Of a stretch of 64,000 nucleotides of DNA, positions 17,932-34,331 are shown in pieces. Positions within the stretch are counted from its first letter, which is position 1; each line of letters starts with the position of its first letter. This DNA comes from Solibacillus merdavium. Its GTDB lineage: Bacteria; Bacillota; Bacilli; Bacillales_A; Planococcaceae. Where the stretch lies: assembly GCF_014836935.1 (NCBI RefSeq), contig NZ_JACSPW010000003.1, positions 1 through 64,000 on the forward strand, in the 5' to 3' direction. Under the pieces are notes generated by a model, which was given only the letters and a program-made list of their open reading frames with translations, was not told where the DNA came from and did no database searches. The translations under genes and the position numbers were made by a program.

Positions 17932-19050
17932 ATGAGAGAAGCGGTAATCGTTGCAGCAACGCGAACAGCAGTAGGGAGAAGAAATGGAGCATTAGCCGAG
18001 GTACGGGCAGATGATTTAGCTGCTGATGTACTGGAGGATATAGTAAAGCGAGCAGGAATTGAAAAGGCGCTAGTAGAGGATATTATTTTTGGATGTGTTA
18101 CACAAACGCTCGAACAAGGTGGAAATATTGCACGTATTGCGGGATTGATGGCAGGTTTTCCAATTGAGGTGCCAGGTGTGACGATTGACCGGCAATGCGG
18201 ATCAAGTCTGCAAGCAGTTCATTTTGCAGCGCAAGCGATTTTAGCAGGTGATATGGATATTGTCATTGCAGGTGGGATTGAAAGCATGAGCCGTGTACCG
18301 ATGGGATCGAATGTTCAAGGGAGAGGCAAAAGCGAACGTATAAAAAAATACGAGCTTATTAATCAAGGGTTATCAGCAGAGCGGATTGCAGAACAATGGG
18401 AGTTAACAGAACAGGAAATTAACGAATACTCTGTGCTCAGCCAAGAACGGGCCATCAATGCGATTAAAGCGGGTAACTTCAAAGAAGAAATTGTGCCGGT
18501 TGGAGACGTGGATACCGACGAGGGACCGAGACCAGGAACAACAGTTGAGGTACTGCAAGGATTGAAAAAGGTATTTAAGGAAGGCGGATTAATTTCTGCG
18601 GGAACTTCTTCACAAATGAGTGATGGTGCATCAGCTGTACTCATTATGTCCAGTGAAAAAGCGAAGGAGCTTGGTGTGAAACCGATGGCGAAAATCATTG
18701 CACGCACAGTCGTAGGTTCTGATCCTACACTTATGCTAACTGGTCCAATTGAAGCGACAAAACGTGTACTTGAAAAAGCGAATTTAACGATTGAAGATAT
18801 GGATACTTATGAAGTGAATGAAGCATTTGCCCCTGTGCCGATTGTTTGGGCAAAAGAGCTTGGAGCGGATTTGGATAAATTAAATCCAGACGGTGGAGCA
18901 ATTGCACTCGGTCATCCACTTGGTGCAACAGGAACAAAATTATTAACGACGATGCTTTACCGTATGGAACGTAATAACCAGCGTTATGGCTTACTTGCAA
19001 TATGCGAAGGCATGGGTATGGCAAATGCAACAATTATAGAAAAGCTCTAG
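17932..19050 (+). CDS. Acetyl-CoA acyltransferase (thiolase) 1
   Basis: Thiolysis of 3-ketoacyl-CoA to acetyl-CoA and a shortened acyl-CoA, the last step of beta-oxidation (or the reverse condensation). The 372 aa are slightly short for the family. The acyl-accepting Cys89 sits in DRQCGSSLQA, the NEAFA motif near 286 and the [14 protein letters not shown] motif near 322 are present, and the C-terminal Cys is in CEGMGMANA rather than the usual CIGGG. The ATG at 17932 follows AAGGGGG by 9 bases. It is the first gene of the co-directional catabolic block. Confidence 0.92.
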   Translation: MREAVIVAATRTAVGRRNGALAEVRADDLAADVLEDIVKRAGIEKALVEDIIFGCVTQTLEQGGNIARIAGLMAGFPIEVPGVTIDRQCGSSLQAVHFAAQAILAGDMDIVIAGGIESMSRVPMGSNVQGRGKSERIKKYELINQGLSAERIAEQWELTEQEINEYSVLSQERAINAIKAGNFKEEIVPVGDVDTDEGPRPGTTVEVLQGLKKVFKEGGLISAGTSSQMSDGASAVLIMSSEKAKELGVKPMAKIIARTVVGSDPTLMLTGPIEATKRVLEKANLTIEDMDTYEVNEAFAPVPIVWAKELGADLDKLNPDGGAIALGHPLGATGTKLLTTMLYRMERNNQRYGLLAICEGMGMANATIIEKL

Positions 19051-19120
19051 ATCAAAAGTATTGCTTAATTATGAATAATGTACGAAATAAATTCATAGTT
19101 AATAGAATATAAAGGAAATA

Positions 19121-19134
19121 TGTAATCGCTTTCA
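19121..19134 (+). promoter_or_regulatory. CcpA cre site
   Basis: TGTAATCGCTTTCA matches the cre consensus TGWAANCGNTNWCA at every defined position. It lies 48 bp upstream of the first acyl-CoA dehydrogenase and 70 bp after the thiolase gene. By established knowledge, CcpA with phospho-HPr binds such sites and represses catabolic genes when glucose is present. It suggests carbon catabolite repression of the genes from 19183 onward. Confidence 0.7.
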
Positions 19135-19182
19135 ATAGATAAAAACTTTAAATCAGAACATGGGGAAGAGAGAGTGAAGAAT

Positions 19183-20358
19183 ATGAATAAAACATTGACG
19201 AAATCCAGAAAAGAATCACGTACTTTCTTAAATGACGAACATATTATGTTTAGGGATTCTCTTAGAAAATTTGTAGAAAAAGAAATTGATCCTTATTTTA
19301 CACAATGGGAAGAAGATCGTATTGTTCCCCGTGAATTATGGACAAAGTTAGGTAGCCAAGGATTTTTATGTCCAAGCGTTGAGGAAAAGTATGGTGGAAC
19401 GGGGCTAGACTTTATTTTTGATGTAGTTCTATCAGAAGAGCTGTCTAAAGTTGGCGGCGGCTTAAGTGGCATTGGTTTGCATAGTAATGTAGTAACACCC
19501 TATATCACGTCATTTGGTACAGAAGAGCAGAAGATGAAGTACTTGCCAAAGTTTGTTAGTGGTGAATGGATTTCTGCCATTGCAATGACAGAGCCGGGTG
19601 CGGGATCCGATTTGCAAAAAATTACTACTACAGCGATTAAAGATGGCTCTGACTATATTGTTAATGGTACAAAAACCTTCATTACAAACGGAATTCTTTC
19701 AGATGTGATCATCATCGCCTGCAAAACTGATCCAAAAGCGGTACCTGCCCATAACGGGGTAAGCTTAATGATTATTGAACGAGGGATGGAAGGATTTTCA
19801 CGCGGCAGAAAGTTAGACAAGGTTGGTATGCATAGCCAGGATACAGCTGAACTAATATTCGAGAATGTTAGAGTCCCTGCAGAGAACTTGCTTGGGGAAG
19901 AAGGTAAAGGGTTCTTGTATTTAATGCAAAAACTACAGCAAGAACGACTGCTCACTGCAGTAGGTGCTATTACGGCTGCAAAGGATATGCTGGATCTGAC
20001 TTTGCAATATGTAAAAGAGCGTGAGGCATTCGGTAAACCAATTGGCAAATTCCAAAACACACAGTTTGTATTAGCTGAAATCGCGACACAAGTACAAATC
20101 GGCCAAACATTTGTGGATGATTTAATTGTGCGCCATTTGGACGGACAGGATATTGTGACCGAAGTTTCCATGGCCAAATGGTGGGTGACGGATATGGCCC
20201 GGAAAATTTCTGCAGAGTGTATGCAATTACATGGCGGCTACGGCTATATGGAGGAATATAAGATTGCGAGACGCTTCAGAGATATTGCTGTTACACCGAT
20301 TTTCGCAGGTTCCAATGAGATTATGAAAGTTATTATTGCTAAAAATATGGGGCTGTAA
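19183..20358 (+). CDS. Acyl-CoA dehydrogenase 1
   Basis: An FAD enzyme that forms the trans-2-enoyl-CoA double bond and passes electrons to ETF. The 391 aa match the family. Visible are the FAD/substrate segment AMTEPGAGSDL (about 133-143), the QLHGGYGYMEEY motif near 350 and the C-terminal FAGSNEIMK, whose Glu is at the catalytic-base position. ATG at 19183 with a GGAAGAGAG site; an in-frame GTG lies three codons earlier. It follows a cre site, so a separate promoter may start here. Confidence 0.92.
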   Translation: MNKTLTKSRKESRTFLNDEHIMFRDSLRKFVEKEIDPYFTQWEEDRIVPRELWTKLGSQGFLCPSVEEKYGGTGLDFIFDVVLSEELSKVGGGLSGIGLHSNVVTPYITSFGTEEQKMKYLPKFVSGEWISAIAMTEPGAGSDLQKITTTAIKDGSDYIVNGTKTFITNGILSDVIIIACKTDPKAVPAHNGVSLMIIERGMEGFSRGRKLDKVGMHSQDTAELIFENVRVPAENLLGEEGKGFLYLMQKLQQERLLTAVGAITAAKDMLDLTLQYVKEREAFGKPIGKFQNTQFVLAEIATQVQIGQTFVDDLIVRHLDGQDIVTEVSMAKWWVTDMARKISAECMQLHGGYGYMEEYKIARRFRDIAVTPIFAGSNEIMKVIIAKNMGL

Positions 20359-20396
20359 TTGTACCAAAGAGTATGAATTTGCGAGGTGATATGAAA

Positions 20397-21590
20397 ATGA
20401 GAAATGTTGTAATCATAGATTCCGTCCGAACAGCAGTTGGCCGGATGGGGGAGACATTGAAAAATGTAGAGGTTGATTATCTCGCGGCAAAAGTGCTGGA
20501 TGAAATCATCGTACGTACCGGTATTAGTAAAAGTGAAATCGATGAAGTTATTCTCGGGCAGGCGAAGCAAAGTACAGACTCGCCAAACTTAGCTCGCTTG
20601 GCGCTTTTACGTGCCGGCTTTCCGATTGAAATTACGGGATACACAGTTCATCGGCAATGTGGCTCAGGTCTGCAGGCAATGAATAGCGGTGCACAGCAAA
20701 TAATGTGTGGTCTATCGGATATTATTATCGCTGGCGGCGCTGAAAGTATGAGTACGGCACCGTACTATCTCCGAAATGCCCGCTACGGCTACGGTGCAGG
20801 CAACGGTGAAATTCTGGACTCAAACACGGAAAGTCAGCCAAGGGCACAGCCTATTGAAACATATGGGGCATTAACAATGGGGATGACCGCTGAAAATTTA
20901 GCTGTCAAATACTCGATTTCCCGAGGTGAACAAGATGAATTTGCCTTAAGAAGCCAGGAAAATGCGAAAAGAGCTATTGAATCAGGTTTGTTTACGCAGC
21001 AAATTGTACCTTTCGAAGTCAAGACGAAAAAAGGATCAGTCGAATTTAAAGTAGACGAGCATCCTAGAGAAACAACTTATCAAAAGTTAGCCCAGTTAAA
21101 GCCTGTCTTTAAAGAAAACGGCACCGTTACTGCGGGTAATACAAGTGGCCGGAATGATGGCGCGGGTGTTGTCATGTTAATGTCAGAAGAAGCGGCTGCA
21201 CGATATGATAAAAAGCCTAAAGCAAAAATTATTGCGCAGGCTGTTGCAGGGGTTTCGCCGGAAATTATGGGAATTGGACCTGCGCCAGCCACGAGAAAAG
21301 CGTTGAAAATTGCGGGTTTAACACTTGATCAAATCGGGTTGATTGAACTGAATGAAGCCTTTGCTGCACAATCTTTAGCAGTTATTAAAGAACTTGGTCT
21401 GGATATGAACCGCGTAAATGTAAATGGGGGAGCGATCGCCCTTGGTCATCCAATTGGCGGCACGGGCGGTGTTTTAATAACAAAGCTGCTTCATGAAATG
21501 GAAAGACGCGGAGAAAAGTATGGTTTAGCAACATTCTGCATTGGCGGCGGTCTAGGTATTACGACAATTATTGAAAATATGCAGTTGTAG
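20397..21590 (+). CDS. Acetyl-CoA acyltransferase (thiolase) 2
   Basis: A 397-aa thiolase of the biosynthetic/acetoacetyl-CoA type. The nucleophile is Cys88 in [10 protein letters not shown], with the NEAFAAQ motif near 318, the [15 protein letters not shown] motif near 350 and the C-terminal FCIGGGLG carrying the second Cys. Two in-frame ATGs (20391 and 20397) follow the GAGGTGAT site; 20397 has the better spacing. It lies 38 bp after acyl-CoA dehydrogenase 1. Together with the CoA-transferase that follows, it could handle acetoacetyl-CoA. Confidence 0.92.
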
Positions 21591-21611
21591 AACAAGCCGG
21601 AGTTGATAAAG

Positions 21612-22901
21612 ATGATTGATTTAGATTGGAAAGACATTTATAGAAAAAGATTTACCACCACTGAGAAAGCAGTCCAGCATATTGAATCCTTTCAAAAGAT
21701 TTTTTTGGCACCGATGTGTAATGAACCTCAAGCACTTGTAGAAGAATTAATTCGTCAAAAGTCACGGTTGCAAGAAATTTCATTATATACCGTCGTTTTA
21801 GGTAGTCCGTGTAAATATGCGGATATAGCCTGTCACCCTCACTTTAACATTCGGACATTTTTAAGTTCTCCATTACTGAAAAAAGCTTATGAAAATAAAA
21901 AATGTGATTATCTTCCGGTGAATTTTTCGGAAATCCCTCGGTGGATTAAAGAAGAGCACATTGATGTCGCCCTCATACAAGTTTCACCACCAAATGCAGA
22001 TGGGTTTTGTAATCTCGGTCTTTCTGTAGATGTGGTGCCAACATTGATAAAAGAAGCGAAGATTGTCATTGCAGAAGTAAACAGCAATCTTCCTGTAACA
22101 TTCGGGGAAACACTAGTCCATGTATCAGAAATCAATTTTTTCGTTCATTCCGACAGGTCGTTACTCACGATTCGTAATAGTCAACCTTCAGAAGAGGATT
22201 TGAAAATTGGGCGGTACGTTGCAACACTTATACCTGAATATGCAACGATTCAAGTAGGCGTTGGCAAAATTGCTTCCGGTATTATTCAATCACTTCATTC
22301 GAAAGTAGGTTTGGGTGTGCATTCCGGTTCTATCTCTGACGACATTATGGAGCTCATAAATATCGGCGTTGTTACAAACGAGCGAAAAGAAATCAACCGT
22401 AATCGAACTGTGTGTACAACACTTACCGGAACGAACGATTTATATGAATTTTGTCATCGAAACGAATACATTGAACTTTACCCGATAAATTACACACATA
22501 ATGCAGCGGTTATATCGAAAATAAGCAATTTCCATTCGATCAATTCAGCGATGGAAGTTAGTTTATCGGGGCAAATAAATGCAGAACAAATTGATGAAAA
22601 TCATGTAGTGGCGGGGGTTGGCGGACAAATGGATTTTATCCGGGCATCAAAGCTATCACCCGGTGGAAGAGCAATTATTGCCATGCCTTCTACGGCACAA
22701 TTCGGGATGGTATCACGGATTAAGGCGCACACACAGTATGTTACATCATTAAAGTCTGATGTTGACTACGTTGTCACGGAGTATGGCATTGCAAAATTGT
22801 TTGGGAAATCCATGAAAGAGAGAGCAGAAAGCTTAATTGCCATAGCTCACCCAAAATTCCGTACTTCTCTTTTAGAGGAGTTCGAACAATTGCAGCAATA
22901 A
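21612..22901 (+). CDS. Acetyl-CoA hydrolase/CoA-transferase family protein
   Basis: A 429-aa member of the family that includes 4-hydroxybutyrate CoA-transferase and acetyl-CoA hydrolase. It moves CoA between acyl groups through a glutamyl-CoA thioester. Recognisable segments are the N-terminal SSPLLKKAY region, SPPNADGFCNLGLSVDV near 122, and the C-terminal VVTEYGIAKLFGKSMKERAESL motif typical of the family. The ATG at 21612 follows GGAG by 11 bases; an in-frame TTG lies at 21603. It is tightly placed after thiolase 2 (21 bp), so it belongs to the same transcript. The acyl donor and acceptor are unknown. Confidence 0.85.
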   Translation: MIDLDWKDIYRKRFTTTEKAVQHIESFQKIFLAPMCNEPQALVEELIRQKSRLQEISLYTVVLGSPCKYADIACHPHFNIRTFLSSPLLKKAYENKKCDYLPVNFSEIPRWIKEEHIDVALIQVSPPNADGFCNLGLSVDVVPTLIKEAKIVIAEVNSNLPVTFGETLVHVSEINFFVHSDRSLLTIRNSQPSEEDLKIGRYVATLIPEYATIQVGVGKIASGIIQSLHSKVGLGVHSGSISDDIMELINIGVVTNERKEINRNRTVCTTLTGTNDLYEFCHRNEYIELYPINYTHNAAVISKISNFHSINSAMEVSLSGQINAEQIDENHVVAGVGGQMDFIRASKLSPGGRAIIAMPSTAQFGMVSRIKAHTQYVTSLKSDVDYVVTEYGIAKLFGKSMKERAESLIAIAHPKFRTSLLEEFEQLQQ

Positions 22902-22945
22902 GATTCCTTGTCTTATTGATTTTTAAACGAGAAAGGGTGGTAAAT

Positions 22946-23857
22946 TTGGCTAACTTAAAAGATAAAGTGGCGATTGTCACAGGTTCCGGCCGAGGGATTG
23001 GACGAGATATTGCTTTGCTTCTAGCAAAAGAGGGAGCGAAAGTTGTAATCAATGATTTAGGTGGCGGATCTGATGGACAAGGAAACGATACAAAAATTGC
23101 AGATGAAGTTGTCGAGGAAATACAGGCACTGGGCGGAGAGGCTGTTGCCAACTACGATTCGGTTGCTGACTATGAATCTGCTTCAAACATTATAGATACA
23201 GCTCTATCAAAATTTGGCCGGTTGGATATCGTTGTAAATAATGCAGGCATTTTAAGGGACCGAATGCTCTTTAAAATGAGTGAGGAAGAATGGGATGCGG
23301 TCATTGCAGTTCATTTAAAAGGATCGTTTAATATGACGCGAGCTGCTGCTCCATTCTTTAAGGAACAAAAAAGTGGGCGCTTTATTCATTTTACTTCCAC
23401 TTCAGGTTTAATCGGAAACGTTGGTCAGGCTAATTATTCTGCTGCCAAATTAGGAATTGTCGGGTTGAGTAAAAGCACGGCGTTGGATATGGCTCGCTAT
23501 AATGTAACGTCTAATGCGATTGCCCCATTTGCATGGAGCCGTTTAATTGGAACAATACCTGCAGAAACAGATGATGAAAAAGTAAGAGTTGAAAGGCTTA
23601 AACAGCTTTCGCCAGCCCATATTGCCCCATTGGTTGGTTTTTTAAGTTCGGATGAGGCAGCCGATGTTTCCGGACAAATTTTTGGTGTACGAGGGAAGGA
23701 AATTATGGTATTTTCTCAGCCACGCCCCGTCCGCTCGGTATACAATGCAGACGGTTGGTCTGTAGACAGCCTAAGTGCAATTAAAGGTTCGCTTCAATCG
23801 AGTTTTACACCGCTTGAAGTAAGTGCAGATGTCTTCCCATATGAGCCATTAGTGTAA
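22946..23857 (+). CDS. SDR oxidoreductase, peroxisomal MFE-2-like dehydrogenase
   Basis: A 303-aa short-chain dehydrogenase with TGSGRGIG at 12-19, NNAG near 97, and the catalytic YSAAK near 162 with a Ser about 13 residues earlier. It is longer than usual SDRs, with a C-terminal extension rich in Ser and Pro that resembles the 3-hydroxyacyl-CoA dehydrogenase domain of multifunctional enzyme type 2 (HSD17B4). The start is TTG at 22946, supported by AAAGGGTGG 5 bases upstream. The MaoC-type genes at 25113 and 25532 would supply the hydratase half of that enzyme. Its role is inferred as oxidising (3R)-hydroxyacyl-CoA. Confidence 0.85.
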   Translation: MANLKDKVAIVTGSGRGIGRDIALLLAKEGAKVVINDLGGGSDGQGNDTKIADEVVEEIQALGGEAVANYDSVADYESASNIIDTALSKFGRLDIVVNNAGILRDRMLFKMSEEEWDAVIAVHLKGSFNMTRAAAPFFKEQKSGRFIHFTSTSGLIGNVGQANYSAAKLGIVGLSKSTALDMARYNVTSNAIAPFAWSRLIGTIPAETDDEKVRVERLKQLSPAHIAPLVGFLSSDEAADVSGQIFGVRGKEIMVFSQPRPVRSVYNADGWSVDSLSAIKGSLQSSFTPLEVSADVFPYEPLV

Positions 23858-23892
23858 AGGATATGACTGCTAAATTGTAAAGGGGGGAAATG

Positions 23893-25068
23893 ATGGACTT
23901 TCGACTGTCGCCAGATTTAATGGAAATGAAAAACTCAATTAGAGATTTTATAGACAATGTAGTTGATCCACTTGCTGGCCAAATCGATCAGGATGACCAC
24001 ATTCCGGAACATATTATGAAACTTACAAAGGATATTGGATTATTTGGTCTTAGTATACCTGAAGAGTACGGCGGTACAGGCATTGATATGGTTGGAAAGT
24101 GCAGTATTTATGAAGAAATTGGTCGTACATCTAATGGATATACAACTGTAATTGGAGCACATACAGGAATAGGAACTGTCGGAATTGTAGATATGGGAAC
24201 TGAAGAGCAGAAGCGAAGATATTTGCCTGGGATGGCGTCGGGTGACATTATTGGTGCATTTGCTTTAACTGAACCAAGTGCAGGTTCCAATGCGGTGGCG
24301 TTAAAAACAACGGCCGTTCGCAAAGGAGACAAATATATTTTAAATGGCTCGAAGCATTATATTACAAATGCTTCGATTGCGGATCTCTTTACTGTAATGG
24401 CCGTCACTGATTCAAGTAAAGGCGCAAAAGGAATTACTTCCTTCCTCGTAGATAAAAGCGCGCCAGGTTTTATTATTGGAAAAACAGAAGAAAAGATGGG
24501 TCTTCGTGGATCGCATTCTTCTGAAATCTTTTTTGAGGATTGTGAAGTTCCAATCGAAAATGTTCTGGGGGTAGAAGGGTTAGGTTATGTCAATGCCTTA
24601 ACAATTTTGGCCAATGGTCGTGCAGGACTCGCTGCAAGGAATTTGGGCTCATCGCAGAAGCTATTTGAGTTATCCGTCAAATATGCGCACGAGCGTGAAC
24701 AGTTTGGTAAACCAATTTTTGAGCAGCAGATCATTCAGCACTACTTAGCAGAAATGGCGATGGATATTGAAACTCTAAGATCCTTTACGTATCGGGTCGC
24801 ATGGATGGTGGATCAGGGGATGAATGTCATCAAAGAGGCAGCTATGGCAAAACTTCTAGGATCGGAAATTTATAACCGCATAGCGGATAAAGCAGTTCAA
24901 ATCCATGGGGGTTTGGGTTATATGAAAGATTTTCCGATTGAAAGATATTATCGTGATGCGCGTATTACAAAGATTTATGAGGGCACATCCGAAATTCAAA
25001 AAAATATCATTGCTGCTCAAATTCATAAAGAATATATGAAAACCGCATCGCCAGCGCATATCAAATAA
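23893..25068 (+). CDS. Acyl-CoA dehydrogenase 2
   Basis: A second FAD-dependent acyl-CoA dehydrogenase of 391 aa. The motifs are canonical: FALTEPSAGSNA near 121, the QIHGGLGYMKD motif near 339, and YEGTSEIQKNII near 366 with the catalytic Glu. The second ATG of an ATGATG pair (23893) has the better distance (5 bases) to the GGGGGG site. It follows the MFE-2-like SDR by 35 bp. With acyl-CoA dehydrogenase 1 it gives the block two dehydrogenases, possibly for different chain types. Confidence 0.93.
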   Translation: MDFRLSPDLMEMKNSIRDFIDNVVDPLAGQIDQDDHIPEHIMKLTKDIGLFGLSIPEEYGGTGIDMVGKCSIYEEIGRTSNGYTTVIGAHTGIGTVGIVDMGTEEQKRRYLPGMASGDIIGAFALTEPSAGSNAVALKTTAVRKGDKYILNGSKHYITNASIADLFTVMAVTDSSKGAKGITSFLVDKSAPGFIIGKTEEKMGLRGSHSSEIFFEDCEVPIENVLGVEGLGYVNALTILANGRAGLAARNLGSSQKLFELSVKYAHEREQFGKPIFEQQIIQHYLAEMAMDIETLRSFTYRVAWMVDQGMNVIKEAAMAKLLGSEIYNRIADKAVQIHGGLGYMKDFPIERYYRDARITKIYEGTSEIQKNIIAAQIHKEYMKTASPAHIK

Positions 25069-25112
25069 TGAATCTTCATTTATCTAATAATAACTTTAAG
25101 GAGGTGAGTTAC

Positions 25113-25520
25113 TTGAGTACAGAGCTTGAGGAAAAAGTTGGTATGAAAATAGAATCCTATACCTTTAGAGTAGAAAAAGGAAAAATTAGAGAACTTGCAT
25201 TAGCGATTGGAGATTTGAAGGAAGAGTATATGAATGGAGAAGCTGTCCCACCTACCTTCCCAACAGTCATTGATTTTTGGGGCGGGGGTTCCTCCTCATC
25301 TGAACTTTTGAATTTAAATATGAAAAAGGTACTGCACGGTGAACAGGAGTATGAATATTTCAGGGAAATCATACCCGATGAAGAGATTACTGTACATGGC
25401 GTTATTGAAAAAGCATATACGAAAGCCTCCATAAACTTTTTTGTCTTACGTAAGGACTATTTGAACGAACAGGGTGAAACGGTACTTATCAGTCGTTCTA
25501 CAATTATTGAAAGGCATTAG
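25113..25520 (+). CDS. MaoC-type dehydratase, N-terminal (FAS1-like) half
   Basis: A 135-aa hot-dog-fold protein resembling the FAS1-like dehydratase domain found as the N-terminal half of double hot-dog MaoC hydratases. It has the strand FPTVIDFWGGG and the helix segment LNLNMKKVLHGEQEY typical of that half. It lacks the catalytic Asp/His pair, which fits a structural partner of the next gene product. The start is TTG at 25113 behind a very strong AAGGAGGTGAG; the ATG at 25068 has no site. It lies 11 bp before the MaoC gene, so the two are translated together. Confidence 0.8.
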   Translation: MSTELEEKVGMKIESYTFRVEKGKIRELALAIGDLKEEYMNGEAVPPTFPTVIDFWGGGSSSSELLNLNMKKVLHGEQEYEYFREIIPDEEITVHGVIEKAYTKASINFFVLRKDYLNEQGETVLISRSTIIERH

Positions 25521-25531: not shown

Positions 25532-25912
25532 ATGGAGGTCGGCTATATGTTTGAATCTTTACAAAAGGAAGAAATAACGCATACACAGCTTGTTCGATAT
25601 GCAGGTGCATCCGGAGATTTCAACCAGATTCATACCGTTGTACCTTATGGGGAAGCAGCTGGTTTAGGTGGGGTCATTGCACATGGCATGTTAATTATGG
25701 GCTTCGTCGGTCAGGCAATTGGACAATGGTTTGAGGCGAAGGATCTGAGAAAATTTACAGCAAGATTTAAAGCGATGACAAGACCAGGTGAAAAAATTAC
25801 GGTGCATGGCCGGATTGTCGATGAAAAGGACGATTGCTGGATTTGTGAGGCTGAAGCAATAAATGAAGACGAGGAAGTAAAAGTAAAAGCGTTTTTCGAA
25901 ATCAAGAAATAA
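25532..25912 (+). CDS. MaoC-type enoyl-CoA hydratase 2
   Basis: A 126-aa hot-dog-fold hydratase. The hydratase-2 motif is present as RYAGASGDFNQIHT (about 22-35), with the catalytic Asp and His, and HGMLIMGFVGQ near 57 forms the active-site helix. With the FAS1-like half at 25113 it likely forms a heterodimer equivalent to the double hot-dog fold of MFE-2 hydratase. It would give (3R)-hydroxyacyl-CoA, matching the SDR at 22946. The start ATG is placed at 25532 after GGGGGGATT; an ATG five codons later also has a site (GGAGGTCGG). Confidence 0.88.
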   Translation: MEVGYMFESLQKEEITHTQLVRYAGASGDFNQIHTVVPYGEAAGLGGVIAHGMLIMGFVGQAIGQWFEAKDLRKFTARFKAMTRPGEKITVHGRIVDEKDDCWICEAEAINEDEEVKVKAFFEIKK

Positions 25913-26061: not shown

Positions 26062-26946
26062 ATGAGAGAATATGTAACGACAAAACAGCAAATCAACAAA
26101 AATTCACTTCCGTATATTTTATATCAAAAGGCGAAAAAATTCGGTATTTGGAATCCGGTAGATATCGATTTTAGCCAAGATAAAGAAGACTGGAAGAAGC
26201 TAACGGAAGAGCAACAATTAGAGGTTTTGACGCAATTTGCTCAATTCATTGGTGGCGAAGAGGCGGTAACACAAGATATCCTGCCAATGATTATGGCAGT
26301 TTCCAAAAAGGGCTGGTTTGAAGAAGAGTCTTATTTAACAACTTTCCTGTTTGAAGAAGCAAAGCATGCTGAGTTTTTCAGCCTGTTCTTGGAAGAAATC
26401 GGTGTAACCGAAGATTTAACGCATTTACTAACTCCAGGCTATCGCAAGTTGTTTGATGAAACGCTGCCGGCTGTTATGGGGAAATTAATTGACGATCAAT
26501 CACCTGAAGCGATGTTAGATGCAGCGGTTACTTACAATATTTTTGCAGAAGGCGTTTTAGCCGAAACAGGTTACTGGTTCTTCCATGAAGCATTATCAAA
26601 GGCCAATCTGTTCCCAGGATTTATTTCAGGAATTCGAAATGTAAAGCGTGACGAAGGACGCCATATCGGCTTTGGTACCTTCCTCATTCAGCGCTTAATT
26701 AGTGAAAATCCTGAACTGGATCTGTTTGAACGCGTACAGCAAAGACTTCAGGAGCTGTTACCGATTGCGATGATGCTAACAGAACGAAAAGAAGGCGAAA
26801 CAGTAACAAGCCTTGGAATTGAAGCAGGAAAATCAATGGAGTTTGCGATGAAACAATTGCAGGCGCGTTTAATGGTTCTTTCACGTGCAAAAGGAAAAAC
26901 TTTGGAAGAGATCTACGATACAGAAGTTGTTTTTGAAGAAGTGTAG
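26062..26946 (+). CDS. R2-like ligand-binding oxidase (R2lox)
   Basis: A 294-aa ferritin-like Mn/Fe oxidase of the R2lox group. All metal ligands expected from characterised R2lox are present: Glu66, Glu99, His102, Glu163, Glu198 and His201. The residues that form the Val-Tyr ether cross-link in the known structures are also here, as Val69 and Tyr158. Known R2lox proteins bind a long-chain fatty acid and activate oxygen at a heterodinuclear Mn/Fe site, but no substrate is established. ATG at 26062 after AAGGGGGAT; the upstream extension of the frame lacks a site. It sits between the MaoC gene and the aldehyde dehydrogenase gene, in the same direction. The lipid role is inferred. Confidence 0.93.
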   Translation: MREYVTTKQQINKNSLPYILYQKAKKFGIWNPVDIDFSQDKEDWKKLTEEQQLEVLTQFAQFIGGEEAVTQDILPMIMAVSKKGWFEEESYLTTFLFEEAKHAEFFSLFLEEIGVTEDLTHLLTPGYRKLFDETLPAVMGKLIDDQSPEAMLDAAVTYNIFAEGVLAETGYWFFHEALSKANLFPGFISGIRNVKRDEGRHIGFGTFLIQRLISENPELDLFERVQQRLQELLPIAMMLTERKEGETVTSLGIEAGKSMEFAMKQLQARLMVLSRAKGKTLEEIYDTEVVFEEV

Positions 26947-27019: not shown

Positions 27020-28537
27020 ATGACTACGGAAGTACAAGTAAAGATCTTTCCACAGTTTATTAATGGTGAATGGACACCAGCAGCTTCAGGTGAATTCTTT
27101 GATGTAATTAATCCAGCTACATCAGAGGTAATAGCGAAAGTTTCAAAAGGCAATGCCGAAGATGTTAACAGAGCTGTTCAAAATGCGAAAGAAGTATTTG
27201 AATCAGGCGTTTGGTCAGGAAAAACTCAGGCAGAACGTGCACAAATTATGATGCGGTTTGCAGGGAAGGTTAGACAACACGCACAGGAAATCATCTTTTT
27301 GGAAGGCATTAGTACGGGGGCGACACTGCGTAAATTGGGTGGTGCGGATATTCGTCAGTTAATACTGTCTCTTACACAGACGGCAGATTTATCGTTGAAG
27401 TATGAGGCAGTAACGGCACTGCCTGTTAATGAACAACTAGGGGCGAATCGCAGCTTGCTTGTTCGCGAGCCGCTAGGGGTAGTGGCGGCTATTACGCCAT
27501 TTAACTTCCCATTGGTATTAGCAATGTGGAAAATTGCACCGGCCATTGCAATGGGGAACTCCATTATTATTAAACCTGCTTCAAATACACCATTAGGTAC
27601 ATTAAAGCTTGCCCAATTAGCAGTTGAAGCAGGTATTCCACCAGGTGTTATCAATGTCGTCACAGGTCCAGGGGCTGAAGTGGGGGATGCCCTCGTAACA
27701 CATCCGGATGTATCGAAGGTTGCATTTACGGGGTCTACAGAAGTAGGTAGAAAAATTATGGCGCAAGCTGCAGGTACTGTTAAGAAAGTGACGCTTGAAC
27801 TTGGAGGGAAGGCGCCGGCAATTGTGCTTCCGGATGTTGATCTTGAAGTGGCCATTCCAGGAATCCTGCTCGGAGTATTTTTCCATTCAGGGCAAGTATG
27901 TGAAGCGAGTACGCGTCTAATTGTCCATGAATCAATTTATGATATCGTCGTTCATCAGCTAGCTGAAACGAGCAAGAAAATTAAACTCGGTCAACCACTT
28001 GATATGGCTACGGGGATGGGGCCGGTTATTTCTGAATCACAAATGAATAAAATTCTTGACTATATTCAGTCCGGCATCGATGAGGGAGCAAGACTTGTAT
28101 GTGGCGGTAAACGTGCAACAGAACCAGGGCTTGAAAATGGATTCTTTATCGAGCCGACAATCTTTGCGGATGTTACGAATGATATGAAGATTGCACGAGA
28201 AGAAATATTCGGTCCAGTTCTTTCTGTCATTAAATATTCAACAGAAGAAGAGGCAATCGCCATCGCAAATGATACAGAATACGGGTTAACAGGCGGCGTT
28301 TGGGGTCGTGATGTGACAAAAGCAAATGAAATTGCGACGAAAATTAAAGCCGGAACAATTTGGATTAATGACTGGCATATTTTCCGTACAGATGCTCCAT
28401 TTGGTGGCTATAAGCAAAGTGGAGTTGGTCGTGAACAAGGAGCTCAAGTATTTGATGACTACACAGAATTGAAGAATATTTGTACGTCATTAACGACTGA
28501 AAATTCACAGCGCCCAGCTTTAGGGTTAATTTTCTAA
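27020..28537 (+). CDS. Aldehyde dehydrogenase family protein
   Basis: A 505-aa NAD(P)-dependent aldehyde dehydrogenase that oxidises an aldehyde to the acid. The cofactor region has TPFNFPL (about 157-163) and FTGSTEVG near 238. Glu260 lies in LELGGKAP, and the catalytic Cys294 in GQVCEASTR. ATG at 27020 follows AAAGGGGG by about 7 bases. It is immediately followed by an iron-type alcohol dehydrogenase and an acyl-CoA ligase, which together give alcohol to aldehyde to acid to acyl-CoA. The natural aldehyde is unknown. Confidence 0.94.
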   Translation: MTTEVQVKIFPQFINGEWTPAASGEFFDVINPATSEVIAKVSKGNAEDVNRAVQNAKEVFESGVWSGKTQAERAQIMMRFAGKVRQHAQEIIFLEGISTGATLRKLGGADIRQLILSLTQTADLSLKYEAVTALPVNEQLGANRSLLVREPLGVVAAITPFNFPLVLAMWKIAPAIAMGNSIIIKPASNTPLGTLKLAQLAVEAGIPPGVINVVTGPGAEVGDALVTHPDVSKVAFTGSTEVGRKIMAQAAGTVKKVTLELGGKAPAIVLPDVDLEVAIPGILLGVFFHSGQVCEASTRLIVHESIYDIVVHQLAETSKKIKLGQPLDMATGMGPVISESQMNKILDYIQSGIDEGARLVCGGKRATEPGLENGFFIEPTIFADVTNDMKIAREEIFGPVLSVIKYSTEEEAIAIANDTEYGLTGGVWGRDVTKANEIATKIKAGTIWINDWHIFRTDAPFGGYKQSGVGREQGAQVFDDYTELKNICTSLTTENSQRPALGLIF

Positions 28538-28587: not shown

Positions 28588-29790
28588 ATGAAAACAACTT
28601 CCTATTTTGAATTCACTCATCGCCCTGAAATCCGAAGCGGTGCAGGTTCACATGTTTTAGTGCCAGATTTAATTCAAGGTTTAGGTGGAAAGCGTCCGGT
28701 ACTTTTTTCAGATAAAGGGTTAACGGATGCAGGCTTAACACAAAAAATTAAAAGCTTATTTGATATGGTTCCAGGCATAAAGCTTGCTGGCGTATTTGAT
28801 GATATTCAGCAAGATGCTAAATCGAGCAATATTAATAGAGGCTTGAAGTATTTTAAAGAATGTAATGGTGACTCCATTATTGCAATTGGAGGAGGCAGTG
28901 TTTTAGACACAGCCAAAACAGTTAAATGGGCCCTTTATAATGGGGTTAACCAGGTTGAATATGTATTGACTGGGAATGTACTTGAAGTTTGGCCAGATGC
29001 CAAGCCACTTGGTATTCCGCATATTTCAATCCCGACTACTGCTGGTACGGGTGCTGAGATTTCCAGTATTTCAGTAGTTTTCAATGAAATGCTGAACTTA
29101 AAATGCAATTTAATGAATCCGTATTTAACTTCTGATATTGCTGTGTTAGATCCTGATTTAACGGTGGGTTTACCGCCAAGAGTAACCGCTTTTACAGGTA
29201 TGGATGCATTAACGCATGCAGTAGAAGGATTTTTCTCGACAAAAGCTACGAATTTTTCGGATGCATTTGCCCTGCATGCTGCCAAAATCATTGTCGCAAA
29301 TTTAACAACAGCAGTGCATGAAGGAAAAAACGTTGCAGCCCGTGCGAATATGCTTCAGGCAAGTGCAATGGCGATCACAAGTTTCCAATCGGCAATGGCC
29401 AATATTCCAATCCACAATATAGCGCATACGTATGGTGCGAGATACGGTATCCCACACGGTTTAGCAAATGCTGTGTTAATGCCGAGTGTGATGAAAAATC
29501 TGTCTGGCGTGTATTTACCGAAAATTAATGCATTTGCCCCTGCTTTAGGTGTAGTTCCGAATGAGGCAAATCCGCAGGAAACATTGGATGAGTGCATTAA
29601 TGTAATTGTTGAATTAAGAAATGCAGTAAATTTACCGGCAAGCTTTGAGGAGTTTAATATCGATACAGCTGAGATTCCGCAACTTGTACCAGCAGTTCAA
29701 AATGACCCTTCCTCACTAAGTTTCCGTATTCCTGAAGATGTCATCGTAAACGTATCTCAAGAAGTGATTAGTTCTAAGGTAAGTATTTAA
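28588..29790 (+). CDS. Iron-containing alcohol dehydrogenase
   Basis: A 400-aa group III alcohol dehydrogenase. The GGGSVLDTAK motif near 97 binds NAD. Metal ligands are expected in the Asp before LTVGLPP (near 193) and in the His residues of TGMDALTHAVEG (near 207-218) and GIPHGLANAVL (near 289-299); all are present. It follows the aldehyde dehydrogenase gene by 50 bp with a GGAGAG site. It would oxidise an alcohol, perhaps one arising from an oxygenase reaction or from wax-ester or alkanol catabolism. Confidence 0.92.
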   Translation: MKTTSYFEFTHRPEIRSGAGSHVLVPDLIQGLGGKRPVLFSDKGLTDAGLTQKIKSLFDMVPGIKLAGVFDDIQQDAKSSNINRGLKYFKECNGDSIIAIGGGSVLDTAKTVKWALYNGVNQVEYVLTGNVLEVWPDAKPLGIPHISIPTTAGTGAEISSISVVFNEMLNLKCNLMNPYLTSDIAVLDPDLTVGLPPRVTAFTGMDALTHAVEGFFSTKATNFSDAFALHAAKIIVANLTTAVHEGKNVAARANMLQASAMAITSFQSAMANIPIHNIAHTYGARYGIPHGLANAVLMPSVMKNLSGVYLPKINAFAPALGVVPNEANPQETLDECINVIVELRNAVNLPASFEEFNIDTAEIPQLVPAVQNDPSSLSFRIPEDVIVNVSQEVISSKVSI

Positions 29791-29874
29791 TTTTATAAGA
29801 CAATTGCTCTTAAATGGGGGAGGGGGACATACCTCCTTTCCTTGATCGATTATTTGAAAGTAGGAGGTTATAAA

Positions 29875-31398
29875 TTGAACATTGTTGAATTGCTTACTTC
29901 GACAACTTCACGTTTGCCAAATCAACCTGTCATCCACTTTAAAAGAGCTCGACTAACTTATAAAGAATTACAAGATAAAGTTTATAATTTTGCTGGTGGT
30001 TTAAAAGATCAAGGAGTCAAAAAAGGTACAAATGTTGCTCTAATGATGACTAACCGTCCGGAGTATATCATTACGTATTTTGCTATTTTAGCAAATGGCG
30101 GTACGGTCGTTCCGATTAATCCCACCTTCAAGGAACAAGAAGTGACCTATATAGTAAATGACGCCGATGTTGAACTATTAATTATAGAAGATGCATCCAA
30201 ACCAGTAGTAGAAAACGCAATGGACCAATTCAAAACAGTCGGAAAGATTATTAATTATAGTGAGACAGAAGATGACCGATTTTTATCATGGCATCAACTG
30301 GAGACATCTTCCCCCATTTCCGAAATCATCCCACTTCATGAATCTGATGTAGCACAAATTATTTATACGTCTGGTACAACGGGCAATCCGAAAGGTGCCA
30401 TGATTACCCATGGAAACTTAAATTGGATGGCAATTACAGCTGCTGTCTACAATCAATTTGTTCCTAGTGATCGTGTTCTGTGTGTATTGCCATTATTCCA
30501 TGCTTATGCAAAGCTGCAAGGTTTCCTGGCACCAATCGCTCATGGCTGTACGATCTATTTAGTGGAACGCTTCCATCCGGTAGAAACTTTAAAAGCGATT
30601 GCAGAATATGAAATAACGATATTCCTAGGTGTTCCAACAATGTATGCCTTTTTTGCCCAAGTTCCTCAAGTAGTGGAGCAACTGGATTTCTCAAAATTAC
30701 GTACTGCTGGTTCTGGTGGTGCAAGCTTACCAGCAGAGCTATTGCATAAAACAAATGAATCGTTCGGTGTAAGTATTTCTGAAGGATATGGCCTAACGGA
30801 AAGTACGGTTATGCTCATGACAACGCATCGAAGCTTACCGAAGAAAGTCAATTCTGTCGGTATGCCATTACCGGGAATTGATTTAAAGTTGGTAGACCCT
30901 GAAGGTAATGAGGTTGTAAACCATGAAGTAGGAGAAATCCTATTTAGAGGTCCGAACATGATGAAGGGCTACTACAAAAAACCGGATGAGACAGCGAATG
31001 CGATTCAAGATGGCTGGCTGCATACAGGTGACTTGGCGTACCGTGATGAAGAAGGCTATCACTTTATCGTTGACCGGAAAAAAGACATTATCATCCGCGG
31101 TGGATTTAATATTTACCCTAGAGAAATCGAAGAGCTATTGTATCAGCACCCAGCTGTAGTAGAATGCTCTGTCATTGGAAGACCTGATCCTGTATTCGGA
31201 GAAAAGACGGTTGCCTATGTAGTAACGAAGGACGCCGGGCTAACAGAAGAAGCTGTCCGAGACTACTGTAAAGAGAAACTTGCTGAATATAAAGTGCCAG
31301 ATTATGTAAGCTTTATTGAGGAAATTCCTAAATCCGGAACGGGTAAAATCCTGAAAACGGCTTTAAAAGATTTAGATAAAAATGTACTGTCTAATTAA
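29875..31398 (+). CDS. Acyl-CoA ligase (AMP-forming)
   Basis: A 507-aa member of the ANL superfamily that activates a carboxylic acid with ATP and CoA. The P-loop motif YTSGTTGNPKGA lies near 164-175, the YGLTES motif near 300, TGDLAYRDEEGY near 383, DRKKDIIIRGG near 399, and the C-terminal catalytic Lys in SGTGKIL near 493. The start is TTG at 29875 with GGAGG 7 bases upstream; an earlier TTG at 29842 has no site. It completes the alcohol-to-acyl-CoA segment of the block. A long-chain or medium-chain substrate is likely but not proven. Confidence 0.92.
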   Translation: MNIVELLTSTTSRLPNQPVIHFKRARLTYKELQDKVYNFAGGLKDQGVKKGTNVALMMTNRPEYIITYFAILANGGTVVPINPTFKEQEVTYIVNDADVELLIIEDASKPVVENAMDQFKTVGKIINYSETEDDRFLSWHQLETSSPISEIIPLHESDVAQIIYTSGTTGNPKGAMITHGNLNWMAITAAVYNQFVPSDRVLCVLPLFHAYAKLQGFLAPIAHGCTIYLVERFHPVETLKAIAEYEITIFLGVPTMYAFFAQVPQVVEQLDFSKLRTAGSGGASLPAELLHKTNESFGVSISEGYGLTESTVMLMTTHRSLPKKVNSVGMPLPGIDLKLVDPEGNEVVNHEVGEILFRGPNMMKGYYKKPDETANAIQDGWLHTGDLAYRDEEGYHFIVDRKKDIIIRGGFNIYPREIEELLYQHPAVVECSVIGRPDPVFGEKTVAYVVTKDAGLTEEAVRDYCKEKLAEYKVPDYVSFIEEIPKSGTGKILKTALKDLDKNVLSN

Positions 31399-31541: not shown

Positions 31542-31548
31542 ATAAAAA

Positions 31549-32310
31549 ATGAATTTTGACCAAAAAGCAATTATTATTACTGGTGGCGGTTCTGGTTTAG
31601 GGGAAGCAACTGCACGAACGGTCGCAGCTGCAGGCGGCTATCCTGTCATATTGGACTTAAATGAAGAAAAAGGTCAAGCAATCGCAGAGGAATTGAATGG
31701 CCTGTTTTTCAAAACGAATGTTGTAAAGGAAGAAGATGTACAGCTGGCAATTAATGGTGCTGTAGAAAAATATGGTTCTATTCAAGGTGTTGTTAACTGT
31801 GCTGGGCTTGGTACGTCAACACGTGTAGTAGGCAGAAAAGGTGTGTTTCCGTTAGATGAATTTAACTTTATTATACAAGTTAATTTAGTTGGAACATTTA
31901 ATGTGATTCGTTTAGCCGCAGCTGCCATGATGACAAATGAAACGAATGATGATGGAGAGCGCGGCGTCATTGTCAACACAGCTTCTGTAGCTGCATTCGA
32001 TGGGCAAATTGGTCAGGCTGCTTATTCTGCATCTAAAAGTGGGATTGTAGGGATGACTTTACCGATAGCAAGGGATTTAGCTAGCTATGGTATTCGTGTC
32101 ATGACCATTGCTCCGGGGATTTTCGATACACCGTTAATGGGGAAGGCACCCCAGGAACTAAAAGAGGCTTTAGGAAAGCAAATTCCATTCCCACAACGTT
32201 TAGGTGAAGCAACTGAATTTGCACATTTAGTAAAAGCTATTTTTGAAAATCCAATGCTAAACGGTGAAACGATTCGACTCGATGGTGCAATTCGTATGGC
32301 CCCGAGGTAA
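31549..32310 (+). CDS. SDR 3-hydroxyacyl-CoA dehydrogenase (HSD10-like)
   Basis: A 253-aa classical SDR resembling type II 3-hydroxyacyl-CoA dehydrogenase (HSD17B10). TGGGSGLG lies at 11-18, the catalytic Ser in NTASVAAF near 145, and AAYSASKSGI near 160 gives Tyr and Lys. The VNCAG and APGIFDTPLM motifs are typical of this subgroup, which acts on (3S)-hydroxyacyl-CoA of straight and branched chains. The GAGGAG site is 11 bases upstream. It is paired with the enoyl-CoA hydratase 12 bp downstream. Confidence 0.88.
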   Translation: MNFDQKAIIITGGGSGLGEATARTVAAAGGYPVILDLNEEKGQAIAEELNGLFFKTNVVKEEDVQLAINGAVEKYGSIQGVVNCAGLGTSTRVVGRKGVFPLDEFNFIIQVNLVGTFNVIRLAAAAMMTNETNDDGERGVIVNTASVAAFDGQIGQAAYSASKSGIVGMTLPIARDLASYGIRVMTIAPGIFDTPLMGKAPQELKEALGKQIPFPQRLGEATEFAHLVKAIFENPMLNGETIRLDGAIRMAPR

Positions 32311-32322
32311 GGAGGAAACCAG

Positions 32323-33117
32323 ATGAAACTTGAAACAATGATGGTAGAAAAGCTAGATTATGGTGTACATGTCGTAACGATTAATAATCCACCGGCTAAT
32401 ACATTAAATGCGGGAATTCAACGTGATTTACTGCAACTGTTAGAAGAAGTTGAAAAAAATCCAGCAATCCGTGCAATCGTGTTTAAATCAGCGAATCCGA
32501 AAATCTTTATTGCGGGTGCCGATTTAGGATCAATGGGAAGCACTGAGGAAAGAGTGGATATCGCAGAAAGTTCAAAACATGTGCAGGATATTTTCAATCG
32601 TTTAGAATCCTTGAGAGTACCGACAATCGCTGCTATTAATGGTCATGCTTTAGGGGGTGGCTGTGAATTTGTGCTAGCCTGCGATTTTCGAATAATGGGT
32701 GGTGGCACAATCGGATTAACAGAAGCGTCGTTAGGTCTGTTGCCTGGTGCTGGCGGGACGCAGCGTATGACAAGGTTACTAGGTGGAGCAAAAGCACGCG
32801 AGTTAATGTATTTAAGTAAACGTTTGAAGGCGGAAGAAGCGGCAGCTATCGGCTTAATTACAGAAGCGGTATCTCCGGAACAGGTAGAGGAAAAAGCAAT
32901 TGCATTCGCTACAACACTCGCTCAGAGTGCAATCGGAGCAATTGGGCTAATTAAAGAGAGTATTTTAGCCGCAGAGGAATTACCGTTGGAACAAGGCTTA
33001 TTAGTAGAACGGGAAGCTTTTGCGAAAACATTTACAACTGGCGAGGTAGAAGAAGGCATCCGTGCATTCTTTGAAAAACGCCCTCCTAATTTTTTGAAAC
33101 CAGTAACAAATCAATAG
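32323..33117 (+). CDS. Enoyl-CoA hydratase (crotonase family)
   Basis: A 264-aa crotonase-fold hydratase that adds water to trans-2-enoyl-CoA. The oxyanion-hole segment FIAGADLGSM and the two catalytic Glu residues are present: Glu115 in HALGGGCEF and Glu134 in EASLGLLPGAGG, with the same 20-residue spacing as the mitochondrial enzyme. It should give (3S)-hydroxyacyl-CoA, matching the HSD10-like SDR just upstream. The AAGGAGG site is excellent, and the gene follows the SDR by 12 bp. Confidence 0.94.
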   Translation: MKLETMMVEKLDYGVHVVTINNPPANTLNAGIQRDLLQLLEEVEKNPAIRAIVFKSANPKIFIAGADLGSMGSTEERVDIAESSKHVQDIFNRLESLRVPTIAAINGHALGGGCEFVLACDFRIMGGGTIGLTEASLGLLPGAGGTQRMTRLLGGAKARELMYLSKRLKAEEAAAIGLITEAVSPEQVEEKAIAFATTLAQSAIGAIGLIKESILAAEELPLEQGLLVEREAFAKTFTTGEVEEGIRAFFEKRPPNFLKPVTNQ

Positions 33118-33132
33118 CGATGACAAATATGC

Positions 33133-33165
33133 GGCCGTTTTGAAAGTTTACCTTTCATTACGGCC
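33133..33165 (+). terminator. Hairpin between the hydratase and CaiB genes
   Basis: GGCCGTTTTGAAAG pairs with CTTTCATTACGGCC (one T-T mismatch) around a 5-nt loop, followed by CTGCTTTTTAG. It may end transcription or reduce read-through into the CaiB/BaiF gene. Confidence 0.65.
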
Positions 33166-33230
33166 CTGCTTTTTAGTGGAACGGAAAAAAGTTTTCAATA
33201 TGACCCGGATAATGAAAGGATGATGGAACG

Positions 33231-34331
33231 ATGCTTTTACAAGGATTGAAAATATTAGATTTCTCTACAATGCTGCCCGGTCCGTTTGCAACAATGATGT
33301 TAGCAGACCTTGGAGCAGAAGTTTTGCACGTCACAAAACCATTAGAAGGAAAGCAATGGGACAAAGATGACTATTTACAGCGCTCTAAAAAGTCAATTGC
33401 CGTTGATTTGAAATCGCCGGAAATAATTACTTCATTAAAAGAGCTTGTAAAGGAATACGATATTGTCGTTGAACAATTCCGACCAGGCGTTATGACACGT
33501 CTTGGTCTAGGATACGAAACACTTAAAGAAGTCAATCCACGGTTAATTTATTGCTCCATAACAGGCTACGGTCAGACAGGCCCATATCGCGATCGGGCAG
33601 GTCATGATATCAACTATGTGTCGATGACAGGGATGCAAGGCTATTCCGGAACAAAAGAAGGCGGCCCTGCAAATTTAGGCATTCAAGTCGCTGATTTGGC
33701 AGGTGGTTCATTGCATGCTGTAGTCGGCATTTTATCGTCCGTCATTTACCGAAATCGTACTGGAATAGGGCAACATCTTGATATTAGTATGACGGATTGT
33801 GCTTTAACTTTAAATGCGTTATTTGCACAGGATTTCTTATCACAAGGAAAACCGCTTCATCGTGAAGAACTATTATTAAACGGTGGCTCGTTTTATGGCT
33901 ATTATGAAACGATGGATGGTCGCCATATTTCTGTTGGCAGTCTCGAGCCGAAATTCAGGCAGGAATTATGTGAGGCGATCGGCCGTCCGGATCTGCTCCC
34001 ACTCGTAATGAGTTTTAAACCAACTGATGACTCGAAGCTAAAAGAACAGTTACAGCAAGTGTTTTTAAAGAAAACATTTAATGAATGGCAAAATATTTTT
34101 ACAAAAGTAGATACTTGTGTAGAGCCGGTTTTAAGCTTTGAAGAAACGGTCACCCATCCACTTTTTGTAGAACGTGAGATGTTTGTCGATGTTGCAAAAC
34201 CGGATGGTACTACACAAAAGCAAATGGCGTGCCCGATTAAGTCCGATATTTTTAAAGCAACTTATACCGCAGTTGGTGTGAAATCAGGGACACATAATGA
34301 GGAGATTCTGGGGATTCCATTAAATAGATAG
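33231..34331 (+). CDS. CaiB/BaiF family CoA-transferase
   Basis: A 366-aa class III CoA-transferase or alpha-methylacyl-CoA racemase-like protein. The N-terminal GLKILDFSTMLPGPFATMMLADLGAE is typical, as is YCSITGYGQTGPY, followed by the catalytic Asp126 in AGHDINYVS. The family includes racemases that convert (2R)- to (2S)-methyl-branched acyl-CoA, which would fit branched-chain lipid degradation, and true CoA-transferases. Sequence alone does not decide. The start is ATG at 33231 with AAAGGATG upstream. It is the last gene of the block, after a hairpin. Confidence 0.9.
   Translation: MLLQGLKILDFSTMLPGPFATMMLADLGAEVLHVTKPLEGKQWDKDDYLQRSKKSIAVDLKSPEIITSLKELVKEYDIVVEQFRPGVMTRLGLGYETLKEVNPRLIYCSITGYGQTGPYRDRAGHDINYVSMTGMQGYSGTKEGGPANLGIQVADLAGGSLHAVVGILSSVIYRNRTGIGQHLDISMTDCALTLNALFAQDFLSQGKPLHREELLLNGGSFYGYYETMDGRHISVGSLEPKFRQELCEAIGRPDLLPLVMSFKPTDDSKLKEQLQQVFLKKTFNEWQNIFTKVDTCVEPVLSFEETVTHPLFVEREMFVDVAKPDGTTQKQMACPIKSDIFKATYTAVGVKSGTHNEEILGIPLNR

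Follow-up and report, generated by a model that had tools for sequence, protein, structure and literature searches.

The Mn/Fe chemistry of R2lox proteins has been well studied, and in the literature searched experimental evidence for a substrate, of a modest kind, is given in only one paper (PMC10867098, published in 2024). In that paper GkR2loxI, encoded by GK2771 of Geobacillus kaustophilus HTA426, was proposed, from a cluster of the kind described below, to act as an alkane monooxygenase, and alkane loss was reported both for cells and for crude lysate with the recombinant protein. The induction of an R2lox by hexadecane in a haloarchaeon is cited there as well. Here, we analyzed a block of 15 genes with an R2lox gene in its middle part, located at positions 17,932-34,331 of a 64,000-nucleotide stretch of Solibacillus merdavium DNA (the window). 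An earlier note on this DNA had stated that R2lox has no established physiological substrate, which is partly outdated by the alkane loss with crude GkR2loxI, for which no product was shown. The note had also suggested that R2lox may oxidize a lipid or alkane-like compound for the neighboring enzymes, which would give R2lox a pathway. This proposal is reasonable but not new, the same route having been put forward for GK2771; what is new here is the second R2lox clade represented by the window, the statistical support for the linkage across Bacilli, and a lead to UbiB. In the literature searched, we found no follow-up to the GkR2loxI alkane claim since 2024 and no paper on the genomic context of R2lox.

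We suggest, with a probability of roughly 0.55, that the block serves the breakdown of a hydrophobic aliphatic compound. R2lox activates oxygen as an Mn/Fe (or Fe/Fe) protein and is known to bind lipids, and it would most likely hydroxylate a non-polar chain to an alcohol; the candidate substrates are alkanes, hydrocarbons with methyl branches or of the isoprenoid type, and lipid tails. The iron-type alcohol dehydrogenase (Fe-ADH) would convert the alcohol to the aldehyde, the aldehyde dehydrogenase (ALDH) would convert the aldehyde to the acid, and the acyl-CoA ligase would form the acyl-CoA from the acid. The remaining genes, possibly co-transcribed with these, would carry out beta-oxidation, and among them the racemase-like and HSD10-like genes, which hint at methyl-branched acyl chains, would permit such chains to be degraded. 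If this is true, an Mn/Fe oxygenase and, in relatives, a UbiB-type ATPase outside quinone synthesis would be placed in hydrocarbon or lipid catabolism.

The open reading frame (ORF) reading of the window gave 15 frames in the block, all on the plus strand and none with an internal stop, in agreement with the fifteen intact genes in one direction described before. Family scans of all 15 proteins (Table 1) and the R2lox ligands also confirmed the described arrangement, in which R2lox has the MaoC hydratases on one side and ALDH on the other, followed by Fe-ADH and the ligase. The R2lox protein scored 266 bits with the NCBIfam model NF006200 (cut-off, 194), and its best solved structure was 4hr0, the G. 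kaustophilus R2loxI (E 3e-60). Residues E69, V72, E102, H105, Y162, E167, E202, and H205 (Gk numbering) are all kept, and the six metal ligands and the Val/Tyr cross-link pair are kept in all 93 alignment rows, the window included. Sequence identity and ligands settle the family, and we regard the gene as a true R2lox. Its start is better read at the ATG at 26062 than at the TTG at 25990, because a good ribosome site precedes the former. The protein is 98% identical to the R2lox of S. faecavium, and the host genome is Solibacillus-like. In a quick tree of the 93 rows, in which 38 of the 89 inner branches lack support, the window R2lox belongs to a group of 35 rows (SH-aLRT 88) in which Fe-ADH loci are frequent, and GkR2loxI lies outside it in a separate starred group of seven rows, so that the two do not share a clade.

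The neighborhood of R2lox in other genomes, which the earlier note had named as the first check, was then compared with controls. R2lox was found in 77 of 398 Bacilli genomes by a class-wide search (E <= 1e-20), with one internal stop in two matches (G148 and G125). Seventy-nine R2lox neighborhoods, from which several near relatives found by the class-wide search were left out, together with 8 of the 25 loci from another search gave 91 R2lox genes; after removal of 10 that had less than 5 kb of flanking sequence on at least one side, thinning of the other 81 at 85% identity left 67. The 40 controls comprised 20 random loci from R2lox-bearing genomes and 20 loci at nrdF matches (four of them from R2lox-bearing genomes, and one locus only 9 kb long); nrdF was re-found in 16 of the latter, and the locus center was used for the other four. 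Neighbor families were counted with the window proteins and a few neighbors as queries. Within 5 kb of R2lox, any alcohol dehydrogenase (ADH) was encoded in 37 of the 67 loci (Fe-ADH in 28 and zinc-type ADH, Zn-ADH, in 11), ALDH in 31, and both ADH and ALDH in 30, versus 0, 2, and 0 of the 40 controls, respectively. The differences were significant for ADH (p 1e-10) and ALDH (p 3e-6), with the reservation that related genomes are not independent and that genus counts address kinship in part. By these counts, ADH and ALDH are conserved partners of R2lox. Genes for UbiB (15), SCP2 (13), UbiD (8), and a LuxR-type regulator (21) were also found within 5 kb of R2lox, versus 0, 0, 0, and 1 in the controls. 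In another R2lox clade, many loci have Zn-ADH in place of Fe-ADH.

Genome-wide co-occurrence was in line with this linkage. Orthologues of the window Fe-ADH (E <= 1e-80) were present in 33 of the 398 genomes, three with one internal stop (G131, G144, and G164), and 30 of these 33 genomes had R2lox (expected 6.4, p 6e-21); by genus the count was 19 of 20 (expected 5.5). The genomes with Fe-ADH and no R2lox match were G194, G213, and G269. The distance between the two genes was 10 kb or less in 20 of the 30 genomes, and in the other 10 they were farther apart (in four genomes by 21-26 kb within one contig) or on another contig. Because of these 10 genomes, the co-occurrence is not explained by operon drag alone. 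In one of the 20 genomes (G204:C32:31248-34633) an R2lox broken into two frames was observed beside the Fe-ADH orthologue, with an intact R2lox on another contig.

The block was also compared among 15 congener genomes, which were searched with the block DNA as the query. It aligned in order, at 79-91% DNA identity, in all six R2lox-bearing congeners, and it was absent as a unit from all nine R2lox-free ones, indicating that the gene block is not a matter of chance. In five of the six, the alignment covered the whole or the greater part of each of the 15 genes. The pairwise dN/dS values of the 15 genes against two congeners, calculated with a crude Nei-Gojobori script, were 0.01-0.23 (0.057 and 0.033 for R2lox), and by this measure the block is under strong purifying selection. 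The R2lox-free congener G003 has a related core (L135), with protein identities of 86% for thiolase 2, 82% for the short-chain dehydrogenase/reductase (SDR), 84% for the acyl-CoA dehydrogenase (ACAD), and 61% for the CoA-transferase, and the 20-kb stretch that holds it showed no match to the window R2lox, ALDH, Fe-ADH, ligase, or MaoC.

In relatives, R2lox was associated with an additional partner. A UbiB/ABC1 ATPase is encoded within 6 kb of 24 of the 91 R2lox genes, being the next recognized gene downstream in 11, and all 22 UbiB proteins of the neighbor cluster keep the K.GQ motif and the [HY][GA]DxH loop. The subfamily defined by E <= 1e-60 to the copy in locus L059 was present in 29 of the 398 genomes, all of which have R2lox (29/29, expected 5.6, p 1e-23; 18/18 by genus), and it lies within 10 kb of R2lox in 22 of these genomes and not so in 7. 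The Fe-ADH and UbiB subfamilies, both partly unlinked, are thus concrete R2lox partners to test. The neighbors associated with UbiB include an SCP2 protein, a small protein with no convincing Pfam match, and a DUF6230 protein. In locus L115 (99% identity between its R2lox and GkR2loxI), the DUF6230 gene directly 3' of R2lox exactly matches two of the three published P21 peptides tried, and the third, N-terminal peptide is matched in its core only; L114 holds one peptide. P21 is a membrane protein of G. thermoleovorans B23 that is induced by alkanes and not by palmitate (PMC2676291). A 142-aa protein encoded between ADH and ALDH in L115 was considered as an SCP2 protein and rejected, with no Pfam or PDB match and no match to an HMM of nine SCP2 proteins of the neighboring type. 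The UbiB gene of the Gk-type cluster should be GK2776 judging from gene order, and GK2776 is not named in the 2024 text (PMC10867098).

UbiB and UbiJ, the latter with an SCP2 domain, have been reported to act as accessory factors when ubiquinone is hydroxylated aerobically (PMC6747719), and by analogy the R2lox-linked UbiB subfamily suggests a function in extracting lipid for R2lox. A wider picture, which we put forward tentatively and with somewhat less than even confidence, is that R2lox serves as the oxygenase in a system, widespread in Bacilli, that oxidizes hydrocarbons or lipids dissolved in the membrane. In one large branch, the UbiB/ABC1 ATPase, SCP2, the small family-less protein, and P21 would pull the substrate from the membrane to R2lox, in a role comparable to that of UbiB and UbiJ for the ubiquinone hydroxylases, and Fe-ADH or Zn-ADH with ALDH would finish the alcohol. 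The window would then be a second branch without the UbiB helper, joined to a branched-chain beta-oxidation block. No paper treating UbiB together with R2lox was found in the literature searched, and in the genome of the window we found only a distant UbiB (25% identity, E 2e-31) outside the R2lox-linked subfamily, no SCP2 match, and, among the 15 block genes, no DUF6230/P21-type gene by family scans.

Here, we need to consider several observations that weigh against a hydrocarbon-degrading block built around R2lox. The reading of the earlier note was partly supported, since ADH and ALDH are linked to R2lox and Fe-ADH co-occurs with it, whereas the ligase near R2lox was not significant (11/67 versus 3/40 controls, p 0.24); the same was true of ACAD (14/67 versus 3/40, p 0.10). 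Neither ADH nor ALDH was encoded within 5 kb in 29 of the 67 loci. Outside Bacilli, none of three loci of the Meiothermus group had ADH or ALDH within 6 kb with a wider query set, and 17 distant loci (L010-L026), many of them short-flanked, had one ALDH and one Zn-ADH within that distance. As for the electron supply, no conserved redox partner (ferredoxin, flavodoxin, or reductase) was seen among the identified neighbor families of ORFs of at least 80 aa, a survey in which shorter ORFs were excluded and seven neighbor clusters of 5-10 loci each remain without a family. The racemase was rejected as a general partner of R2lox, with orthologues (E <= 1e-100) in 19 genomes of which 5 had R2lox (expected 3.7). 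In the R2lox-bearing congener G007 (L184), the CoA-transferase alignment was limited to residues 51-200 of 432 and interrupted by stops, and the ligase aligned no further than residue 293 of 518; both genes look broken, and R2lox, ALDH, and Fe-ADH are complete. Two FMN monooxygenases of the NtaA/DmoA type are also encoded in the host genome, as is a P450 that matched CypC over its 115-residue scanned part, and these enzymes could likewise oxidize hydrophobic substrates. Finally, the published GkR2loxI assay followed substrate loss in crude lysate with no product reported, GkR2loxI and its E202A/H205A mutant were only 11-21 points apart in the alkane left over, and this metal-ligand mutant retained much activity (PMC10867098).

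Three other explanations have to be compared with the hydroxylation of a non-polar chain. R2lox might instead be a hydroxylase or desaturase whose substrate is a fatty acid, a fatty alcohol, or an acyl derivative, and ADH and ALDH would then oxidize a hydroxyl group at the omega position or within the chain. Long-chain (hydroxy) fatty acids are carried along when R2lox proteins are purified (PMC10867098), a desaturase role has been proposed (PMC4118035), and the block has its ligase and beta-oxidation genes whichever substrate is used. However, the hydroxy acid bound in GkR2loxI is not transformed further and has its hydroxyl far from the metals (PMC10867098), the ADH/ALDH pair would fit a terminal alcohol best, and the response of P21 to alkanes and not to palmitate (PMC2676291) also speaks for a hydrocarbon, so that we consider this alternative unlikely. 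It appears still less probable that ADH and ALDH serve a short or polar product, with R2lox cleaving or oxidizing a side group, terpenoid, or aromatic ring rather than a long chain. The closest solved or curated kin of Fe-ADH do include lactaldehyde reductase and methanol dehydrogenases, and those of ALDH include betaine-aldehyde dehydrogenase, but the curated-family scores for Fe-ADH (13) and ALDH (best 25 of 43) are all below the cut-offs and therefore say little on the substrate. A strict PDB search with ALDH likewise returned nothing at E 1e-140, and the ligase scores above the long-chain ligase cut-off. A distant R2lox clade (L067, L073-L075, L121-L127, and L131-L133) encodes a UbiD decarboxylase, ALDH, and Fe-ADH, mostly with an MFS transporter and often with a ligase or enoyl-CoA hydratase, and such a setting looks like the use of organic acids, not alkanes.

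The block might also degrade fatty acids or alcohols with R2lox as a passenger that has another co-regulated task, such as metal or oxygen sensing or stress. The loci lacking ADH and ALDH would fit such a passenger, and in two scanned loci R2lox has a gene of the housekeeping type beside it, for ATP-sulfurylase in L083 and for lipoate ligase in L080. In addition, racemase genes at E <= 1e-60 were enriched in R2lox genomes (32/79, expected 15.3, p 6e-7; 22/45 by genus, expected 12.4). Since even this gene is enriched, lipid-degrading genomes share some background association with R2lox, and part of any co-occurrence may reflect a lipid-degrading lifestyle. This background is, however, much weaker than the association of Fe-ADH (30/33) and the UbiB subfamily, which hold partly without physical linkage, and the strong purifying selection on the block likewise argues against a passenger, which we consider highly improbable. 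Based on these observations, the oxidation of a hydrophobic aliphatic compound by R2lox remains the reading that we prefer.

The features of the block are collected in Table 1. The gene starts listed are mechanical, as given by the ORF program, and that of SDR 1 probably lies a little downstream, because the initial listed residues hit a stop in all six congeners compared. The last gene matched the alpha-methylacyl-CoA racemase 1x74 better (E 5e-56) than CoA-transferases (E 5e-44 or weaker) among solved structures, and its AGHDINY and VADLAGG segments align with what we take to be the catalytic His and Asp motifs of the racemase, which places it with the racemases; in NCBIfam it matched CoA-transferase names only, every match being below the cut-off. 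SDR 2 matched HSD10-type dehydrogenases.

Table 1. Features of the R2lox gene block and its upstream element in the window.
Feature	Positions	Strand	Basis or remark
Conserved element (GGTTGTAAT..GCAACATATAGTG), possible promoter/operator	17806..17841	+	5' of first gene
Thiolase 1	17932..19050	+	family scans
Acyl-CoA dehydrogenase 1	19174..20358	+	family scan
Thiolase 2	20373..21590	+	family scan
CoA-transferase, acetyl-CoA hydrolase/transferase family	21603..22901	+	family scans
SDR 1, 3-oxoacyl reductase / 3-hydroxyacyl-CoA dehydrogenase type	22916..23857	+	family scans; listed start probably too early
Acyl-CoA dehydrogenase 2	23890..25068	+	family scan
MaoC-like hydratase A (FAS1_DH_region; MFE-2 hydratase 2 N-terminal domain)	25068..25520	+	family scan
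MaoC-like hydratase B (PF01575)	25532..25912	+	family scan
R2lox of 294 aa with all six metal ligands and the Val/Tyr cross-link pair	26062..26946	+	NCBIfam, PDB match, alignment
Aldehyde dehydrogenase (ALDH)	27020..28537	+	family scans
Iron-type alcohol dehydrogenase (Fe-ADH)	28588..29790	+	family scan; orthologues nearly confined to R2lox genomes (Bacilli sample)
Acyl-CoA ligase, after Fe-ADH	29842..31398	+	curated-family score above long-chain ligase cut-off
SDR 2, HSD10/HADH2-like 3-hydroxyacyl-CoA dehydrogenase	31549..32310	+	match to HSD10-type dehydrogenases, family scan
Enoyl-CoA hydratase	32323..33117	+	family scans
CaiB/BaiF-family gene, alpha-methylacyl-CoA racemase-like	33231..34331	+	1x74, E 5e-56

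The element upstream of the first gene, about 35 bases long, is kept in the window and in all seven relative sequences compared, two of which (L002 and L183) are, judged by length, the same contig. A paired operator formed by two GTTATGCAACAT copies 5' of the block was rejected, as only the promoter-proximal copy lies in the conserved stretch, and promoter and terminator scans were not used, as they gave fewer sites than shuffled sequences (31 versus 46.2 and 12 versus 14.5, respectively). Hairpins of note were found at 17370-17401 on the plus strand and at 34636-34602 on the minus strand. Directly 3' of the block, 42 bases of GC-rich intergenic DNA (34359-34400) recur at 95% identity in many places of congener genomes, and a 60-base part of this DNA is found in G005 at 86-88%. 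Around R2lox in other genomes, three R2lox genes, placed on both sides of ALDH and Fe-ADH, were observed in one locus (L005:6372-13196). The LuxR-type regulator gene (e.g., L057:10221-10895 and L059:7851-9326) is often divergent and has a longer form with a GAF domain, and in L088 (8887-10692) a gene for a PAS sigma-54 activator, a possible regulator, lies directly 3' of R2lox.

We then compared the window with known systems. The window R2lox shares the fold family, the metal ligands, and Pfam PF00268 with the R2 subunits of class I ribonucleotide reductase (NrdB/NrdF), but it differs from them in its R2lox model scores and its Val/Tyr pair. Family scans found no R1 gene (NrdA/NrdE) among the 15 block genes, and unlike the R2lox loci none of the 20 nrdF-type control loci had an ADH nearby, so that the gene does not look like a ribonucleotide reductase small subunit. 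The aerobic ubiquinone hydroxylation complex (PMC6747719) resembles the loci of relatives, in which a UbiB-type ATPase accompanies R2lox, often together with an SCP2 protein, and the likeness extends, as an analogy only, to an arrangement with hydroxylases acting on a membrane lipid; the genome of the window differs in having no SCP2 match and only the distant UbiB. The AlkB, LadA, and CYP153 alkane oxidation pathways, also summarized in PMC10867098, likewise combine a hydroxylase, ADH, ALDH, acyl-CoA ligase, and beta-oxidation. The window differs from them in that its oxygenase is an R2-fold protein and no rubredoxin or other electron donor is encoded among its 15 genes.

The closest system is the GkR2loxI cluster. 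The window differs from it in its ADH, which is Fe-ADH and not the Zn-ADH of the Gk-type locus L115, in an R2lox that is only 41% identical to GkR2loxI and falls outside the Gk tree group, and in encoding no UbiB, p110, or DUF6230/P21 among its 15 genes, while the block adds the racemase-like gene, the HSD10-like gene, and the MaoC pair. On the other hand, both have the same eight key R2lox residues, ALDH and ADH encoded next to R2lox, and beta-oxidation genes nearby, and both would follow the same proposed logic from alkane to acyl-CoA.

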